Virus record (IMG/VR): IMGVR_UViG_3300028364_000001 | Span: 1 to 61,955 of that record | Length of the DNA: 61,955 nt | Origin: a virus | Reading direction: 5' to 3' (one strand) | In this document: in pieces, positions 11,953 to 26,537 of the stretch | How the letters are laid out: each line of letters opens with the position of its first letter | Position numbering within the stretch: the first letter of the stretch is position 1 | The notes under the pieces: generated by a model | Told to the model about the DNA's origin: nothing | The model's input: the letters and a program-made list of their open reading frames with translations, nothing else | Databases searched by the model: none | Position numbers and translations under genes: made by a program

Positions 11953-14900
11953 ATTCGGTCTCGTCCTCATCCTCGTCTGTGGGCAGGCGGATAAACCCGC
12001 CCTGTCGGAACCTCGTCAGGGCCATCACTGCGGTATCCGCGAGGTCATCGTGGGCGCCGACCGGGAAACTCGCGATCTCCTCCACCAGCTCCTCGGCCCA
12101 ACGGGTCGTCGGCACCCAGACGATGCCTGCCAGCACGATATCTGCCACGGCCTGCATGCGCGCGAACTTGTTACCCGACCCACGGTGGGGGGTAAACTCC
12201 TGCAGCATCATGCCTGTGCGCCGCAATTCTTGAAACAGTGCCACCCCGGAGCTCTTTTTCTCCACGATGAACGCATCCGGCTCCCACTTCTGGTACAGCT
12301 CCGTGGCCAGCGCCCTCAGTTCAGGGTATTCGACCCGGCGCCGCACCGCGTCCAGCAGGATCAGGTTGTTCGTGCGCTCTTCCTCATGAAAAAACACGCC
12401 CCACGTGGTGATCGCGGTATAGTCGGCCTGTTCTTTCTGCTCCGCAGCAGCATCAAGTGCCATGATGATGTAATCCACCTCTGGTGGCTCGGTTCCCGTC
12501 CATATCCGCCACCATTCTCGTTTGATGAGCGCTGAACCTTCCGCCGTGGGGTCCTGCTGGTACTGGGCGTTCCACTGGAACGTGGGCATCGAGGCCTGCG
12601 TGCGGTGCAAGGCTGCCAGATCGAAGAACGCGGGCCACAACGCCTTCTCCTTGATCGTCCCATCAGGCTGCTTGATCTCCATGATGGCTGGAAACTCGAC
12701 CACCTCGTACTGATCGGCGTTGTCGTTCTGGGTCATGTCCTGCACGACTCGCCCCGTAAGGTCCAGGACATGCCAGCGAGTGTTATGGCTCACCAGCCCG
12801 TTCGCTATGAAGTTCTCCGTGCGGTTTATCTGGACATCGAACACTTCTTCCCGCCCTGCAGGGGTGATCGACTCAATCTGGTCTTCGGTGAAGTCGCAGG
12901 TACTCGGCAACCGCAAGGGCGGTCTCTGCAGTTTTTGCGTATCCGGCGGCAAGGTTGCAGTCGTTGCAGAGCAGGGCTCTGACATACCCTCCCTCGTGAC
13001 AGTGATCGACGCACAGTTTGTTGTTCCAGTGCGCCCGGGTGTTGTGCTTGCTGGGGGGTTGCTTGCAGATAGCACACTTGCCCTCTTGGGCGACCAGCAT
13101 CCTGTCGTGCTCCTCCATACTAAGCCCGTACCGGTGTTTAAGATGTATCCTGCGTCTGTCTTCGGGGCTCTGACTCCTCTTTCCAGATGCCCACAGGCTT
13201 TTGTTATAGTGGCTTCTGCAAAACCCTTTAGCTTTCGCAGGGGCATCACAGCCTTCGATAGAGCAGCTCTGGCCCACGTGCTTCCCCCAGTGACCCACAC
13301 CGCGCCGGGGCGCGTCGGGGTTCTTCCGGTGGTAGCAGTCGAAGGATTTGTGAGCCCCTCACTTGCTCCGCTTGGTTGTCGCGCTAGATGGGCGGTCGCA
13401 TCCTTCAGCGATACAACGAAATCCCCCGTCCTCAAGTCTTTCAGGCGTACCCATGCAGTCTCTCCCGTTTGTGTGCGGACCAAGAACGGATGTCGTTCGT
13501 TCGCCCTCACAACAATACCAGAAGTCATCTTGATTGCATATATGCAATCTATACCATTTGACTGATGGTTCACCACCTTCTCATAGTCTAGGCGCCCGTC
13601 GTCATATGTCGCAACGACGTCTCCGACGCGGATATCCCGCAGGGGCTTCCCGCGCCCGTCCTGCATGAGGACCGGGGTGTCGCCTGTCATGCACTGGACC
13701 AACGCCACGCAGCCCCCGGGCATGAGGCGTGTCCGCGCGCCGAAGGTGAACCATTGATATGCCTTGTCGAACACCTCGAAATTGCCCGCCAGCACGTCCT
13801 GCTCGGAGTGTGGGTCGTCGATGATCAGCATGTCCGCACCGCGCCCGGCCAGACTTGAGCCCACACCGGTGGCGTAATACTCGGACCCGTGGTTCGTGCT
13901 CCACCGGCCAGCCGACTTGGAGTCCTGTGCGAGGGTGATCCCTGCGAATATCTCCTGATACCGCGTGTCATTCATCAGGTTCCGCACCTTGCGGCCGAAG
14001 TCCACCGCCAGATCGGTGGTGTGGGACACCATCATGACCTTCTTGCCGGGGTTACGCCCAATGTACCACGCGGGGTAGTATATGGAGACAAGCTGCGAGT
14101 TGTGCGTGGGTGTCAGATTCCGGCCTACCAGATACAGCCCGTCCGGGCTGTCTACCTGAATGCAGTGCCCCACCTCCCCGTTGGGGTTCAGCCGGATAGC
14201 TGCGATTGCCTTCCTGCGCTGCGGGGCCAACCGTTTTATATGTTTGTGGGGGATGTGCACCGGTATATCAATGGTGGGCTGGAAACCCACATAATACACG
14301 ACTTGCCTGCCCACGATCCCGCTCGTCGATGTCGTTGGCGGTTGCTCATACATATAGGGCGCCTGCCCAAGCCCTGTCAGCATCTCCAGCAGGGAGTCCT
14401 TCAACGGGGCAGAACACGTGGCGATCCGCACGCGCCCGGTGCTGCGCTCGACGTGCCCGTCAGTGTCGATGAGCCCCGCCAAGAGATCGAGCCTCTGCTC
14501 CAGAGATGCCCTTATGTAGATGTCGGGTATGTGCTTGTTCCCCAACACCCCCACGTGCCGGAGAGTCTGTTTTATCCCTTGGTAGCAAAACCCTGCTGAT
14601 ATGACCCCGGTATCCTTGTGCACAGCCTCCCAAGTTACGCGAAACCCTCGGCGCTGCAGCTCTGCTCTAGGCTGCGGGTAGTCCGGGTGATATACGAAGT
14701 CAGGGTGCGTCGCCCGGCCGTCCCCTAACCAAACCCCCAAAAAGTATGGGTCCAGAGGCAGCTCTGCCACGGGAAACTCCAGAGGCGTGATTTCAGGTAG
14801 CTGGTATTGGAACCGATTGCCGTTGGTGAGGTTACGTGGCTGGCCAGCTGTGGGCCCGACCCTGCTTGGCTCTAGGAACCATTGGGTCTCCTGTGTTTCC

Positions 14901-15406
14901 CACACCCTTTTCGGGCGACTGTACACAGTCCACTCATGGGCCCCATGGCAGCGTATGGTATCCCCGTTGGTGAACTCCACCTCGTAGTCCGCAGGAGCGG
15001 TGTCGGACACTGCAAGCACCTCGACAGGTTCGCCCGACGGGTGAAACACATAGTCCCCTACCTGAAGCTCCCCGTGAGTTCTCCATCCGGCTGGTGTAAG
15101 GACGGGCGTGCTGTCTGCTACAAGTTTGCCGTGGCGAGGAGGCATGTTCACTGCCACCCGGTCCTTGGCGCCGTTATCCAGTGCCATAAGCTGGTCAGCG
15201 AGGATGCGGTGGTGTCGTCCCACCTTATAGTCAGGCTGCATATATTTGCAGAACGCGATCAAGTCGTCGTAGGCCGCTTGCCGGGCCGAGCGATCCTGCA
15301 GGTCGGAGACCATGGCCTCCACCTCCGCCGCCTCGTCGTGCGTCAGCTGGTCGATGTTTGCCAGCAAGGTGCGCAGCTCGGCTTCGGAGAACCCAACGTC
15401 AGACAT
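11924..15406 (-). CDS. terL: Large terminase subunit, interrupted by two inteins
   Basis: 1160 residues before splicing, about 514 after removal of inteins at residues 95-436 and 572-875. The extein has the DNA-packaging ATPase motifs: PPRHGK|SQ (Walker A, split by intein 1), MLIIDDPHSE (Walker B) and Q|TRWH (motif III, split by intein 2). It also has a C-terminal nuclease with MALDAAAEQ, FIVEKKSSG and HDDLADTAVMA. Both inteins sit in highly conserved catalytic motifs, so splicing should be essential for packaging. Its ATG overlaps the TGA of the upstream 53-residue gene (TGATG). Confidence 0.93.
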   Translation of the reverse strand: MSDVGFSEAELRTLLANIDQLTHDEAAEVEAMVSDLQDRSARQAAYDDLIAFCKYMQPDYKVGRHHRILADQLMALDNGAKDRVAVNMPPRHGKLVADSTPVLTPAGWRTHGELQVGDYVFHPSGEPVEVLAVSDTAPADYEVEFTNGDTIRCHGAHEWTVYSRPKRVWETQETQWFLEPSRVGPTAGQPRNLTNGNRFQYQLPEITPLEFPVAELPLDPYFLGVWLGDGRATHPDFVYHPDYPQPRAELQRRGFRVTWEAVHKDTGVISAGFCYQGIKQTLRHVGVLGNKHIPDIYIRASLEQRLDLLAGLIDTDGHVERSTGRVRIATCSAPLKDSLLEMLTGLGQAPYMYEQPPTTSTSGIVGRQVVYYVGFQPTIDIPVHIPHKHIKRLAPQRRKAIAAIRLNPNGEVGHCIQVDSPDGLYLVGRNLTPTHNSQLVSIYYPAWYIGRNPGKKVMMVSHTTDLAVDFGRKVRNLMNDTRYQEIFAGITLAQDSKSAGRWSTNHGSEYYATGVGSSLAGRGADMLIIDDPHSEQDVLAGNFEVFDKAYQWFTFGARTRLMPGGCVALVQCMTGDTPVLMQDGRGKPLRDIRVGDVVATYDDGRLDYEKVVNHQSNGIDCIYAIKMTSGIVVRANERHPFLVRTQTGETAWVRLKDLRTGDFVVSLKDATAHLARQPSGASEGLTNPSTATTGRTPTRPGAVWVTGGSTWARAALSKAVMPLRKLKGFAEATITKACGHLERGVRAPKTDAGYILNTGTGLVWRSTTGCWSPKRASVLSASNPPASTTPGRTGTTNCASITVTREGMSEPCSATTATLPPDTQKLQRPPLRLPSTCDFTEDQIESITPAGREEVFDVQINRTENFIANGLVSHNTRWHVLDLTGRVVQDMTQNDNADQYEVVEFPAIMEIKQPDGTIKEKALWPAFFDLAALHRTQASMPTFQWNAQYQQDPTAEGSALIKREWWRIWTGTEPPEVDYIIMALDAAAEQKEQADYTAITTWGVFFHEEERTNNLILLDAVRRRVEYPELRALATELYQKWEPDAFIVEKKSSGVALFQELRRTGMMLQEFTPHRGSGNKFARMQAVADIVLAGIVWVPTTRWAEELVEEIASFPVGAHDDLADTAVMALTRFRQGGFIRLPTDEDEDETEYVPKRAAYY
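12782..13693 (-). mobile_element. Intein 2 of TerL (TRWH motif), linker also encodes an endonuclease out of frame
   Basis: 304 residues, starting Cys (CMTGDTPVLMQDG) and ending VSHN before Thr of TRWH. Block A, block B (ANERHPFLV) and block F (EEVFDVQINRTENFIANG) are present, so it should be a class 1 intein. In its own frame the roughly 145-residue linker is a Thr/Ser/Pro-rich sequence with no recognisable fold. The same DNA read two bases later encodes an endonuclease VII-like protein. Confidence 0.88.
12873..13298 (-). CDS. Endonuclease VII/HNH-like homing endonuclease nested out of frame in TerL intein 2
   Basis: 141 codons from a GTG at 13298, same strand as terL but shifted. Zn ligands: CSIEGC...CRSH, then CAICKQPP...LCVDHCHEGG and LLCNDCN, the pattern of recombination endonuclease VII-type HNH proteins. 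The stop falls just as the intein C-terminal splicing block begins. In the same frame upstream, an ATG at 13454 with GGGAGA before it starts another C-x3-GC finger but meets a TGA at 13361-13359. The 5' end may therefore be nonsense-mutated, and the GTG start is uncertain. Confidence 0.75.
   Translation of the reverse strand: MGHWGKHVGQSCSIEGCDAPAKAKGFCRSHYNKSLWASGKRSQSPEDRRRIHLKHRYGLSMEEHDRMLVAQEGKCAICKQPPSKHNTRAHWNNKLCVDHCHEGGYVRALLCNDCNLAAGYAKTAETALAVAEYLRLHRRPD
14099..15124 (-). mobile_element. Intein 1 of TerL (Walker A), class 3-like, with in-frame LAGLIDADG domain
   Basis: 342 residues between K and S of the P-loop. The first residue is Leu, not Cys/Ser/Ala, yet the block A pattern (STPVLTPAGW...GELQVGD) is clear. 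The class 3 hallmark triad is present: Trp65 two residues after the block B His (HGAHEW), Cys321 at block F position 4 (GHCIQV) and Thr340 before the terminal His-Asn. Two dodecapeptide motifs (FLGVWLGDG and LAGLIDTDG) show an in-frame homing endonuclease. The downstream extein residue is Ser. Confidence 0.85.
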
Positions 15407-21645: not shown

Positions 21646-21667
21646 CCAACCAACTGAAGGACACGAC

Positions 21668-22768
21668 ATGACACGAGCAAACGCAATCTACGACGTCAGC
21701 CTTGACCAGTGCGCAAGCCTGATCGAGGCCTCGGGCAGCACGGTGACCTACCTGCTGCAAGGCGGGATCGGTATCGGCAAGTCCGCTTTGCTGGGCCAGA
21801 TCGGCAAGAGCATGCCCGGCCACCTGCAGGTCTACTTCGACTGCACGACCAAGGATCTTGGGGACATCATGATCCCCAACCTTGCCGAAGCTGCGGGCGG
21901 CACGCCCTACGTGCGGTTCGCGACCAACGAAGAACTGGGCATGCACCTGTGCGACCAGCCTATCATCCTGATGATCGACGAGCTGGGCAAGGCCAACCCC
22001 TCGGTGAAGAACGCACTGACCCGCATCCTCTACGAGCGCAAGATGGCCGGGTATACGATGCACCCCGACAGTATCGTGTTCGCCACCACCAACCTCGGTG
22101 CCGAAGGCGTTGGGGATATGCTGCTGCCCCACCAGTGGAACCGGATCTCGGTGCTGACTGTGCGCAAGCCCGACCACATGGAGTGGCTCGAATGGGGTAT
22201 CAGCAACGGGATCGACCACACCCTGCTGGGCTGGGTCCGCGACAACCCGCAGCTGTTCCAGTCCTTCGAGGACGTCAACGACGCAGAGCAGAACCCCTAT
22301 ATCTTCCACCCCCGGGACCCCAGCCGCAAGGCGTTCGTGACCGGCAGATCGCTGGAGAAGGCCAGCCACATCATCAAGGCCACCAAGGGCAAGGTGGACG
22401 ACATGACGCTGACTGCCGCCCTGATGGGCACGCTGGGGGACCGCGCGGCGATGGACCTGATGGCCTTCGTGCGACTGGCCAACGACCTGCCCAGCCATGC
22501 CTCGATCAAGAACGACCCGCTCAACGCCAAGGTGCCCGCCTCGGCCGCCGCAACGTGCATGGTGGTGTACCGGGCCTTGTCTACCATGGAGGCCGACTGG
22601 GTGGACAACTGGATGATTTACGTTGAGAGGTTGGACACCGAGGCCCAAGGCCTGTTCGCCAACGGCGTGCGGTCGCCCAAGTACGCCAAGCAGTCGGTGG
22701 TGTTGCTCAACAAGAGCTTCACTCGCTGGGTCCAGAGCAGGGCTTACCTCTTCGGCGCGGATCAGTGA
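21668..22768 (+). CDS. MoxR-type AAA+ ATPase
   Basis: 366 residues. Walker A GGIGIGKSAL (about 32-41), Walker B IILMIDELGK (D104, E105), sensor-1 region IVFATTNLGA, then a helical lid and C-terminal domain. MoxR/CobS-type ATPases work with VWA proteins to remodel or load metal into target complexes. The VWA partner is encoded at 24160. Followed by MIW-GDG copies 3 and 4 with only one base between stop and ATG. Confidence 0.85.
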   Translation: MTRANAIYDVSLDQCASLIEASGSTVTYLLQGGIGIGKSALLGQIGKSMPGHLQVYFDCTTKDLGDIMIPNLAEAAGGTPYVRFATNEELGMHLCDQPIILMIDELGKANPSVKNALTRILYERKMAGYTMHPDSIVFATTNLGAEGVGDMLLPHQWNRISVLTVRKPDHMEWLEWGISNGIDHTLLGWVRDNPQLFQSFEDVNDAEQNPYIFHPRDPSRKAFVTGRSLEKASHIIKATKGKVDDMTLTAALMGTLGDRAAMDLMAFVRLANDLPSHASIKNDPLNAKVPASAAATCMVVYRALSTMEADWVDNWMIYVERLDTEAQGLFANGVRSPKYAKQSVVLLNKSFTRWVQSRAYLFGADQ

Positions 22769-23197: not shown

Positions 23198-23950
23198 ATG
23201 ATGGGACTTCGTATGCCGGACGTCAGGGGCGTCGGCACCTACGCGCAGGCCGCTGCACTGTTCGACAGGGCCAAGGAGCGCAAGAACCCCTACCACTCCG
23301 GCACACATGCCATACCCGGGCACAAGGTCACGTTCACAGGCCTGTCCAAGGCCGCCGACGGCACAATCAGATTCACCTATCACAGCACTGACGTGGTGGA
23401 GTGGCACCCCGACGACACCTGCACGCTGGACATCGGCTGGAAGAGCATAAGCACAGGCACGTTCGCTGATCGCTTTGCGCCTGTTGGGGTGGGCATCTAT
23501 GGAGCGTGCAAAGCCCTGCGTGTGGACGGCGTCTACTACAACCCACATGGCATTGTGCGCCTCGACGTGGAGGGACGGCTGACCCACGCCAGCGAAGACA
23601 CGCGCCCGATCCTTCAGGTGCGTGTAGACCGCAAGAAGGCAAAGGCTGCATCGGAGGAGTCTGGTCTCACGGCTTTCCTCGCATGGTACAAGCCCATGGC
23701 GGCCCTGCTGGGCAACGAGCAGATGCACAGGGAGAACCACTACAACTCGGACCTCGTTACGTCCTTGCTCTACAGGGATCAGTGGGAAAAGCTGCGCACC
23801 TGTAGCAGGCTTGCCGGTGCCCGGGCCCATGTCTCCGTCGTAGAGCGGGCTCTGCGCAAGGCCGTGTACGAGCGTTACGACGCCTACTACACCACGGAGC
23901 ACGCAAGCGCCCCCGATTACGGGTCGTTCACTGCGTGGACCCGGGAGTGA
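23198..23950 (+). CDS. Accessory protein, unknown function
   Basis: 250 residues. RMPDVRGVGTYAQAAALFDR at the start; a beta-rich middle (KVTFTGLSKAADGTIRFTYH, CTLDIGWKS); a helical C-terminal half with SGLTAFLAWYKPMAALLGNE. No known active site. It lies between the ATPase and VWA genes, so it may belong to the same system. Its stop overlaps MIW-GDG copy 5 by GTGA. Confidence 0.65.
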   Translation: MMGLRMPDVRGVGTYAQAAALFDRAKERKNPYHSGTHAIPGHKVTFTGLSKAADGTIRFTYHSTDVVEWHPDDTCTLDIGWKSISTGTFADRFAPVGVGIYGACKALRVDGVYYNPHGIVRLDVEGRLTHASEDTRPILQVRVDRKKAKAASEESGLTAFLAWYKPMAALLGNEQMHRENHYNSDLVTSLLYRDQWEKLRTCSRLAGARAHVSVVERALRKAVYERYDAYYTTEHASAPDYGSFTAWTRE

Positions 23951-24117
23951 TCTGGGCTTTCCTCCGTCCGCTGGTGTGGGCCAAGTACGCGTGGGACGGT
24001 GGCGGCGACGACTACCCTTTTGGGGACGGCTACTACGGCGACGGCGACGGCGACTGCTATGGCGAAGGTTACAACTATGGGCATGGCGCCGGTGACCACG
24101 ACGGAAACAGCAGATGA
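23947..24117 (+). CDS. MIW-GDG family protein, copy 5 (GTG start)
   Basis: 56 residues from GTG: (V)IWAFLRPLVWAKYAWDGG, PFGDGYYGDGDG, GEGYNYGHGAGDH. Start overlaps the previous stop (GTGA). Stop fused to hairpin H9. Confidence 0.66.
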   Translation: MIWAFLRPLVWAKYAWDGGGDDYPFGDGYYGDGDGDCYGEGYNYGHGAGDHDGNSR

Positions 24118-24137
24118 CTTAGTCATCCCGACTAGGT
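24117..24137 (+). promoter_or_regulatory. Hairpin-leader element H9 (upstream of VWA gene)
   Basis: ACTTAGTC, ATCCC, GACTAGGT; followed by CCAACCAAGAAAGG and the ATG at 24160. Confidence 0.8.
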
Positions 24138-24159
24138 CCAACCAAGAAAGGACGACCCC

Positions 24160-26319
24160 ATGTTTGGGAACGGAAAACTTACACCAGAGCAACGCCTCCA
24201 GAAGGCGGTCATTGCGATCATGCATCACGACAGATACCGCGCCTTGGCGGGGGTGCTGATGATCGGCAGTCGCAAGGTGGGCACCCATCTGGGTCGCACC
24301 GCTGTGGACACCGCCGCCACAAACGGCATGGACGAGATGTACAACCCCGATTTCATCACGTCGCTCAAGGACTCGGAGCTGCGGTTCCTCGTGCTGCACG
24401 AGAACTACCACAAGCTGTACAAGCACCTGACCACATGGCGGTGGATGTATCTGCGCCATAAGCAGGCGGCCAATGCTGCCTGCGTGGTCGGGGAGACCCT
24501 TATCACGATGGCAGACGGATCGTTTCGTGCCGCCGAAAACATTCGGGTTGGGGATAAGGTGCGGACCCCGTTTGGTCCTGCGCCCGTGCTCGCTGTCAAG
24601 GCCACTGACAACCGTCAAGTATGCGAACTTGACATGGGTATGGGATATAAACTACAATGTACCCCTGACCATAAACTACTGACGGATCGTGGATATGTCG
24701 AAGCCCAATGCCTCACAGAAGCGGATACAATCTACTTGGACGCCGGAGATGGACGCCTTTGTGAAGGAGAATCATGGCGTCATGCAGATCAAAGATATGG
24801 CCCCACACTTGGGGGTGACGGCAATGTCTGTGTACCACAGGCTGCGGAAGCTGGGCTTGGCGTCTACTCGGATGACCGTGAAACAGCAATCGCTGAAAGG
24901 CTTGGGTCTCTGGCAGCCTACGGACTGGGCGTACTTCGCCGGCTTGGTGGACGGGGAGGGCACGGTTACGTGCCAGATCACACAGGGCAAGTACCTGAGG
25001 CCAACACTATCCGTGACCAATACGAGCTACAGCTTAATGCTTTGGTTGGAGTCGCTGGGGATGTATTGTGTGCTGGCCCGAAACAACTACGGCAATATGT
25101 ACTGGAAGGCGGAGGTTTCGGGCTTCGGGATATTGCCGGTGCTGGAGGGGATACGCCCTTGGGTGAAGATACGGACCCGTCGCTACGATATACTCATGGA
25201 GATAATCCGCATCCGAACCTCGGCGGGCTACCGTTTCCAGCCGACTACCGCCATCATCTCCTTGTTAGCGGAATTGAAGGCCTTGAACCTGCGAGGCTCA
25301 CAGTTAGAAGATTCCTTGGCGAGAGCCGGAGAGTCTACGACATCACTACGCCCGCACAGTGTTTTGTTGCAAACGGGGTAGTCGTGCACAATTGCGATTT
25401 TGTCATCAACATCAAGCTGGTGGACGACAACAAGACTGACCGCTTCGCCACCATGACAGGGGGCCTGCTGATCGGCTGCTTCGACGAGAAATATAGAGAC
25501 TGGGACAGCGCTGCGGTGTTCCACGACCTGCTCAAGAACGCCAAGCAAGGCGGGGGTGGCGGCCAAGGCGAACCCGGCCAACCCGGCGAACCCGGCGAAG
25601 GCGAACCGGGCCAAGGCTTCGACGCCCACGACTGGGACGGGGCGCAGGACATGCCCGATGCTGACAAGCAGGCGCTGGCACGCGACATCGACGAGGCGAT
25701 CCGCCAAGGCGCGCTGATGGCAGGCAAGACCGGGTCAGGCGGTGACAGGTCACTTGATGATCTGATGCAGCCACAGGTGGACTGGCGCACGGCGCTGCGC
25801 GACTTCATCACCACGACCTGCGCAGGGTCTGACTTCTCCACGTGGAAGCGGCCCAACCGTCGCTTCATCGGCGCGGGCTACTACATGCCCAGTGGCATCA
25901 CGGAGCGTGTCAAGGATATCTGCGTGGCCGTGGACACCTCGGGGTCCATCAGAGGGCCGCAACTGGCATCGTTTCTGAGCGAGGTCCGGGGCATCGCCGA
26001 CTCCGTGCGGCCCGAGCGCATCCACCTGCTGTACTGGGACACGGCAGTGTGCCGCCACGAGGTGTATCTGGAGCAGGACCTGCACAACTTGGTCCAGTCG
26101 ACCAAGCCCGAGGGCGGCGGAGGCACCATGGTCGAGTGCGTGCCGGAGTTCCTCAACAAGATGGGGATCACCCCACAAGCGGTTATCGTGCTGACCGACG
26201 GCTACCTCGGCGGCAGCTGGGGCACGTGGACCTGTCCGGTCCTGTGGACCATCCTCGACAACAAGAGCGCCCGCCCTGACCACGGGGCAACGGTGCACAT
26301 CAAGGGTCACGAGCTGTGA
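24160..26319 (+). CDS. Metallopeptidase-VWA protein (DUF2201-like) interrupted by an intein
   Basis: 719 residues, 415 after removal of the intein at residues 108-411. The N-terminal domain has HENYH (residues 80-84), a zinc HExxH motif, and the split segment AANAA|CDFVIN. A Gly/Pro/Glu-rich linker (GQGEPGQPGEPGEG) follows. The C-terminal VWA-like domain has the metal-site motif DTSGS (D592) and later IVLTDGYLGG. This is the arrangement of DUF2201 proteins, partners of MoxR ATPases. Stop overlaps MIW-GDG copy 6 (GTGA). Confidence 0.85.
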   Translation: MFGNGKLTPEQRLQKAVIAIMHHDRYRALAGVLMIGSRKVGTHLGRTAVDTAATNGMDEMYNPDFITSLKDSELRFLVLHENYHKLYKHLTTWRWMYLRHKQAANAACVVGETLITMADGSFRAAENIRVGDKVRTPFGPAPVLAVKATDNRQVCELDMGMGYKLQCTPDHKLLTDRGYVEAQCLTEADTIYLDAGDGRLCEGESWRHADQRYGPTLGGDGNVCVPQAAEAGLGVYSDDRETAIAERLGSLAAYGLGVLRRLGGRGGHGYVPDHTGQVPEANTIRDQYELQLNALVGVAGDVLCAGPKQLRQYVLEGGGFGLRDIAGAGGDTPLGEDTDPSLRYTHGDNPHPNLGGLPFPADYRHHLLVSGIEGLEPARLTVRRFLGESRRVYDITTPAQCFVANGVVVHNCDFVINIKLVDDNKTDRFATMTGGLLIGCFDEKYRDWDSAAVFHDLLKNAKQGGGGGQGEPGQPGEPGEGEPGQGFDAHDWDGAQDMPDADKQALARDIDEAIRQGALMAGKTGSGGDRSLDDLMQPQVDWRTALRDFITTTCAGSDFSTWKRPNRRFIGAGYYMPSGITERVKDICVAVDTSGSIRGPQLASFLSEVRGIADSVRPERIHLLYWDTAVCRHEVYLEQDLHNLVQSTKPEGGGGTMVECVPEFLNKMGITPQAVIVLTDGYLGGSWGTWTCPVLWTILDNKSARPDHGATVHIKGHEL
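24481..25392 (+). mobile_element. Intein in the VWA protein, linker also encodes a LAGLIDADG enzyme out of frame
   Basis: 304 residues. Cys1 (CVVGETLITMADGS), block A ...IRVGDKV, block B CTPDHKLLT, block F RVYDITTPAQCFVANG, ends VVVHN before extein Cys. All splicing residues of a class 1 intein are present. The in-frame linker (about residues 80-275) has no recognisable fold; the +1 frame carries the endonuclease. Confidence 0.88.
24695..25381 (+). CDS. LAGLIDADG homing endonuclease nested out of frame in the VWA intein
   Basis: 228 residues from the ATG at 24695 (a GTG at 24689 is also possible), in the +1 frame relative to the VWA gene. The N-terminal TWTPEMDAFVKENHG and HLGVTAMSVYHRLRKLGL form an HTH. 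Then AYFAGLVDGEGTV is a LAGLIDADG motif, followed by a typical beta-rich core and ILMEIIRIR. Only one dodecapeptide is seen, so it should act as a dimer. The frame ends only 11 bases before the intein end. Ribosome site weak. Confidence 0.82.
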   Translation: MSKPNASQKRIQSTWTPEMDAFVKENHGVMQIKDMAPHLGVTAMSVYHRLRKLGLASTRMTVKQQSLKGLGLWQPTDWAYFAGLVDGEGTVTCQITQGKYLRPTLSVTNTSYSLMLWLESLGMYCVLARNNYGNMYWKAEVSGFGILPVLEGIRPWVKIRTRRYDILMEIIRIRTSAGYRFQPTTAIISLLAELKALNLRGSQLEDSLARAGESTTSLRPHSVLLQTG

Positions 26320-26537
26320 TCTGGAGCTTTCTCAAGCCGCTGGTGTGGTGGGGTGACAACTACGGCGATGGCCGCAACGGAGCCGACGGGAACGGTTATG
26401 GCGACAGCATCTTCGCATATGGAGGCGATGGGACGGATAGCCATGGCTTCGAGTACGGCAATGGTGACGGCGTCGGCTACCACGACACTGAAGGTCGCGG
26501 CTTCGGCCGTGACAATGGGAACGGAGGAAGGTCATGA
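26316..26537 (+). CDS. MIW-GDG family protein, copy 6 (GTG start)
   Basis: 73 residues from GTG: (V)IWSFLKPLVWWGDNYGDG. The only copy with Lys in place of the motif Arg, using codon AAG. The tail end GRGFGRDNGNGG resembles copy 9. The stop overlaps copy 7 (ATGA). Confidence 0.67.
   Translation: MIWSFLKPLVWWGDNYGDGRNGADGNGYGDSIFAYGGDGTDSHGFEYGNGDGVGYHDTEGRGFGRDNGNGGRS

Follow-up and report, generated by a model that had tools for sequence, protein, structure and literature searches.

A phage intein in a DUF2201 gene with a predicted LAGLIDADG homing endonuclease encoded in a second reading frame

The DNA analysed in this study is the complete IMG/VR virus record IMGVR_UViG_3300028364_000001; its 61,955 bases (61% G+C) are called the window here, coordinates are positions in it, and loci compared with it bear L numbers. 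A plus-strand gene at 24160–26319 encodes a DUF2201 protein, a putative metallopeptidase with a VWA-like domain (719 aa with its intein; PF13203, 69.5 bits; PF09967, 58.3 bits), and an AAA_5 (MoxR-like) gene (PF07728) lies upstream at 21653–22768. Seven plus-strand copies of a 31-bp element, GATCTGG.CTTTCCTC.G.CCG.TGGTGTGG, were found at gene ends (21433, 22772, 22957, 23949, 26536, 27794 and 28257). Short Gly/Tyr/Asp-rich ORFs follow several of these copies, and related copies of the element are present in L004 and L022.

The DUF2201 gene contains an insert of 304 codons (24481–25392, plus strand; ANAA^...HN^CDF) directly 3′ of an HExxH-like motif. This frame, frame 0, is open without a stop and, as the initial annotation had claimed, holds all splicing blocks of an intein. 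The residues typical of class-1 inteins are present, with a nucleophile at position 1 (Cys1), the TxxH of block B (TPDH at residues 61–64), block F VYDITTP, the C-terminal HN (H303 and N304), and a Cys at the +1 position that may be Cys, Ser or Thr. PF14890 (Intein_splicing) scored 36.3 bits, above its 35.8 cut-off, and the intein-end models TIGR01445 and TIGR01443 reached their own cut-offs. In the AF2 model of frame 0, the Hint N-terminal half with blocks A and B (residues 1–90; 24481–24750) has a pLDDT of 73–91 and resembles mini-inteins in Foldseek, and the Hint C-terminal part with blocks F and G and the terminal HN (residues ~265–305; 25273–25392; matched by TIGR01443) has a pLDDT of 82–89 over residues 271–305. 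Mini-inteins were the top Foldseek matches of the whole model (DnaB and RecA mini-inteins, E 4e-6). Between these ends lies a linker of 174 residues (91–264; 24751–25272) that is predicted to be disordered (pLDDT ~25); a profile search of it found no family match, in line with the earlier view that it lacks a recognisable fold. We regard the insert as a class-1 intein with a predicted Hint domain, which would be expected to splice. A self-splicing intron was also considered and rejected, as positions 23900–26400 had no Rfam match and the splicing frame is open; an Rfam search of seven related loci likewise found no intron, the sole match being an unrelated int-alpA RNA in L130.

In the +1 frame of the same strand, an ORF of 228 aa runs from ATG to TAG at 24695–25381. 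Residues 15–55 of its product (24737–24859) form a predicted HTH region, with helices at 17–26, 32–39 and 43–52 and matches to PHROG regulators. A LAGLIDADG motif, AGLVDGEG, follows at 24938–24961, in which the acidic Glu88 is kept and D86-G-E88-G is invariant in 25 aligned sequences. I-MsoI and I-CreI are sequence relatives of the product. Its AF2 model shows a LAGLIDADG fold (mean pLDDT 81) with the alpha-beta-beta-alpha-beta-beta-alpha order of the I-CreI type, and its best Foldseek matches are all of the I-CreI/I-MsoI/I-CvuI type (I-CreI, E 1.3e-7). The profile search suggested by the initial annotation succeeded for the Hint side and gave only a weak match for the endonuclease side: LAGLIDADG_3 scored 14.2 bits, under its curated cut-off of 22.5, which is a detection threshold and not a defining trait, and a profile search alone would therefore have missed this enzyme. 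The same model gave 24.2 bits, over the cut-off, for the related endonuclease of L249. The family score being insufficient by itself, the window enzyme was classed by its fold, its motif and its similarity to I-CreI and I-MsoI. These features agree with the HTH and LAGLIDADG reading first given to this frame, and point to an I-CreI-like homing endonuclease that presumably cleaves DNA. A plasmid search using the endonuclease gave no match.

The canonical arrangement, in which the endonuclease lies in the splicing frame, is not found here. At either end the endonuclease ORF runs into Hint blocks, so dual coding extends beyond the linker, although ordered residues (blocks with pLDDT >=70) are encoded in both frames by only about 30 of its 684 nt.

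An independent contig, IMGVR_UViG_3300037294_000532 (L128, identical with L002/L003), carries an intein 97.5% identical in nucleotides to that of the window, with zero indels over 915 nt, both frames intact and an endonuclease 96% identical. The similarity ends sharply at the intein boundaries, and the exteins share only 60% aa identity. The window's insertion site is empty in L004, whose extein is 90% identical in amino acids to that of the window, and in L012 (86.9% in a tblastn match); the more distant homologues, L005, L007 and L009 among them, are likewise intein-free there. A near-identical intein in a divergent extein, together with empty sites in close relatives, is the pattern that recent homing typically leaves behind, and it is by homing that the DUF2201 intein appears to have moved. 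As for the differences between the window and L128 inteins, 20 of 23 fall within 297 nt (24710–25006), and the next 297 nt are identical; this clustering may reflect mosaic recombination or selection that differs along the intein. In L248 (3458–5819), a related free-standing HTH-LAGLIDADG ORF interrupts a DUF2201 gene near position 93 of the profile, not far from the position (~89) at which the window has its intein; neither an intein nor an Rfam intron was found at this split gene.

Searches of IMG/VR with endonuclease alignments revealed further loci of this kind. In nine distinct contigs, window and L128 included, with G+C of 0.34–0.64 and from two gene families, the LAGLIDADG ORF is always +1 of the intein. 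Five (L129, L130, L245, L249 and L258) have it at one common site of a glycosyltransferase gene, L269 at another site of a glycosyltransferase gene, where the matched part lacks the HTH, and L244 (G+C 0.34) in a DUF2201 gene at a site other than the window's. Relatives with an in-frame endonuclease, which would have argued against an out-of-frame gene, did not turn up: none was found at the same site among the DUF2201 loci or the LAGLIDADG loci searched. The endonuclease tree supports the glycosyltransferase-intein group and lacks resolution in its deeper branches; it neither establishes nor excludes a single origin of these inteins. The +1 LAGLIDADG version was found in metagenome-derived contigs only, and isolate phages carry HNH and antisense versions.

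The arrangement is not an isolated case and has a second example in the same genome. The terminase large subunit gene, on the minus strand, contains two inteins. Intein 2 (12782–13693; PF14890, 58.6 bits) has an open splicing frame of 304 codons and an in-frame linker of no recognisable family, and an Endonuclease VII/HNH gene (12873–13454; PF02945, 59 bits) lies in its +2 frame. The HNH start (ATG or GTG), at intein nt 237–240, is kept in every sequence checked, and most sequences have a Shine-Dalgarno-like sequence ahead of it. Relatives of the HNH occur at 79 IMG/VR loci examined, of which the closest ten all have it in the +2 frame of terminase inteins, the intein frame of one of them (L053) being just partly open; the remaining loci have no open overlapping frame. 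The +2 HNH in a terminase intein also occurs in the isolate Gordonia phages Angelicage, Sedona and Fosterous and in the Mycobacterium phages Vincenzo, Phlyer and phi1_186018. That the layout recurs in many unrelated phages shows that it is neither a freak nor an error. Terminase intein 1 (14099–15124, minus strand) offers an internal contrast, with a LAGLIDADG endonuclease in the same frame as the intein (PF14528, 27.9–30.5 bits). It sits at a Walker A-like GK^S, seemingly starts with Leu rather than Cys, Ser or Ala, and is possibly a class-3-like intein.

We consider it highly probable that the DUF2201 insert is a mobile class-1 intein of two-frame design, in which frame 0 serves splicing and frame +1 is a separate endonuclease gene. 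This reading is built on the two reading frames, the two predicted folds, the horizontal transfer, the recurrence and the frame-specific constraint, and reaches from them to splicing, cleavage, promoter use and the mode of translation start. Frame 0 would be translated within the DUF2201 precursor, and the Hint ends would fold together and splice out the complete 304-residue intein, whose middle may be a mere disordered spacer bound to stay stop-free. The HTH and I-CreI-like enzyme encoded in frame +1, presumably a homodimer, would cut host-gene alleles that lack the intein, and repair would then copy the intein into them. As to origin, a homing-endonuclease gene was probably inserted out of frame into a mini-intein, after which selection would have kept frame 0 open and conserved the protein of frame +1. 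The single-motif I-CreI-type fold is typical of intron and free-standing genes, not of intein-fused enzymes. This fits the entry as an independent gene that the initial annotation had proposed.

The endonuclease would most likely be made from its own promoter in the coding part of the Hint N-terminal half. A candidate, TTGACA-N18-TACAAT (24629–24658, plus strand), identified as a consensus match, lies 36 nt 5′ of ATG 24695 and is the sole sigma-70 match of at least 11/12 on the plus strand of the window (p=0.007 vs shuffles). Comparable promoter-like sites occur at the equivalent place in L245 (11/12) and in L130 and L258 (10/12); no strong site was found there in four of the eight lineages (L129, L244, L249 and L269). 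The alternative is that a +1 ribosomal frameshift after block B makes a fusion of N-extein, Hint N-terminal half and endonuclease, so that the latter is not an independent gene. Such a frameshift needs no internal ribosome-binding site, and ATG 24695 has no strong Shine-Dalgarno sequence upstream. Yet an ATG stands directly ahead of the HTH in the window, L129, L130, L244, L245, L249 and L258, it is preceded by a promoter-like site in several loci, and the endonuclease of L258 has a strong Shine-Dalgarno sequence (−13.5 kcal/mol); we judge frameshifting unlikely. A promoter test of the HNH family showed no enrichment, L054 excepted. The promoter-like sites of the LAGLIDADG type favour an own promoter, and the conserved internal start of the HNH type favours internal initiation; both modes are proposed from sequence.

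Homing endonucleases commonly decay, and the +1 ORF might be a dying relic whose expression or activity is lost. The same phage provides a precedent in its terminase-intein HNH gene, where a nonsense codon near 13360, after the conserved start, truncates the N-terminal zinc-finger part, with intact copies existing elsewhere. The LAGLIDADG ORF, by comparison, is full-length with its motif acid intact, and a near-identical copy is found in a distant phage. Moreover, of the 22 changes between the window and L128, 11 are silent in the endonuclease frame, where 6.1 were expected (P=0.017); this excess argues against decay, and a relic seems improbable to us. The frame-specific comparison of relatives proposed at the outset thus bore out constraint on the endonuclease. 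In the intein frame, 6 of the 22 changes are synonymous vs 6.7 expected, and the linker accordingly appears, from this comparison, to be constrained only to remain open. Every divergent pair has a higher identity in the endonuclease frame than in the intein frame, with third codon positions the most variable: L129 and L130 share 46% in the former and 19% in the linker of the latter, and in their endonuclease codons variation is 0.70 at third positions vs 0.43 and 0.38 at the others.

High G+C, without selection, might also account for the open intein frame across the endonuclease. The window has 61% G+C, and in G+C-rich phages the probability of an open frame over the +2 HNH, with the HNH protein fixed, is often high (0.05–1.0). 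For the LAGLIDADG type, synonymous codons of the endonuclease were permuted and stops were counted in the intein frame. With endonuclease protein and codon usage fixed, 0.5% of permutations left the intein frame of the window open (P=0.005); the third frame has 14 stops. Each of the nine contigs has 0 stops in the intein frame vs 4.0–12.8 expected (P 0.007 to <0.0002 each), including L244, L258, L269 and L130, of G+C 0.34–0.46, for which 6–13 were expected. These low-G+C relatives contradict a G+C accident, which we hold to be very improbable for the LAGLIDADG case, and they agree with the earlier suggestion that the intein frame is kept free of stops. A sequencing or assembly indel that shifted an in-frame endonuclease out of frame has a negligible chance of being the cause, since it would require two compensating indels, L128 is an independent contig with no indel, and seven further divergent loci have the endonuclease in the same relative frame.

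The two-frame intein was compared with known systems. The initial annotation had allowed that similar cases might be published, and this holds for insertions that are not inteins. The ShiLan domain and the Pacc40 insertion in actinophage DNA methylases (Arsenault et al. 2025, PMC11855218) also have a homing-type endonuclease out of frame in a stop-free host ORF and are mobile between divergent phages. Their endonucleases are HNH, and neither insert contains a Hint or splicing domain; both are believed to remain part of the protein, whereas the DUF2201 carrier is an intein with a Hint domain and a LAGLIDADG enzyme. Lone LAGLIDADG enzymes in phage methylases (Gosselin et al. 2023, PMC9957025), as in DotProduct (L026, 1107–3098) and Ailee (L025, 1107–2981), are ~25% identical to the window endonuclease, and in these two records they likewise occupy the +1 frame of a host gene whose own frame is open; they lie in an insertion without a Hint domain, not in an intein, and the aligned part lacks the N-terminal HTH. 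The intein version, a continuous and functional-looking intein with an endonuclease overprinted in another frame, was not found among the papers searched. Two works are cited by PMC11855218 on overlapping frames, namely a 2025 preprint about inteins of actinobacteriophages with non-canonical architecture and Gorbalenya 1998, which concerns non-canonical inteins. The terminase-intein HNH layout may be covered by the former (10.1101/2025.01.02.630785), the title of which refers to non-canonical architecture.

Canonical inteins (PI-SceI type, and terminase intein 1 of the same phage) share with the DUF2201 intein the Hint domain, a conserved insertion site and horizontal transfer, but have the endonuclease fused in the splicing frame. 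The terminase inteins of Gordonia and Mycobacterium phages (Angelicage, Vincenzo, Phlyer) are also true inteins with an out-of-frame endonuclease, which differs in its Endonuclease VII fold, its +2 frame and its host gene. Dassa and co-workers reportedly described fractured genes in 2009, in which split inteins flank a free-standing endonuclease gene. There, too, the endonuclease is an ORF of its own between intein halves, but the intein frame is broken by it and trans splicing is needed, whereas frame 0 of the DUF2201 intein is continuous throughout. L046 and L047 have arrangements resembling a split intein around a free-standing endonuclease.

The textbook intein is a single polypeptide with a fused endonuclease. 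If the present reading is true, endonuclease expression is uncoupled from splicing; with splicing and mobility encoded by separate frames of one piece of DNA, the two could be expressed and decay independently. The nonsense codon in the terminase HNH gene beside a splicing frame that is still open would be an example of such decay. Homing genes would also have a route into mini-inteins that does not depend on the right frame, and the origin of endonuclease-bearing and split inteins would become testable. Inteins scored as endonuclease-less owing to an unrecognisable linker may hide an endonuclease in another frame. We lean slightly towards a broader proposal, namely that inteins repeatedly gain an overprinted homing endonuclease gene in any alternative frame (+1 LAGLIDADG, +2 HNH, antisense LAGLIDADG), expressed from a promoter or start that it has within the Hint-coding part, and that these form a distinct, widespread intein class linking mini-inteins with fractured split-intein genes.

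In the Gordonia phages Barsten and Nordenberg, a Mu-F-like minor capsid gene (L322, 968–4075; L323, 959–4066) contains an intein, and a related LAGLIDADG is encoded antisense to this intein. The intein was called there from visible end motifs together with Hint_2 and Vint matches just under cut-off.
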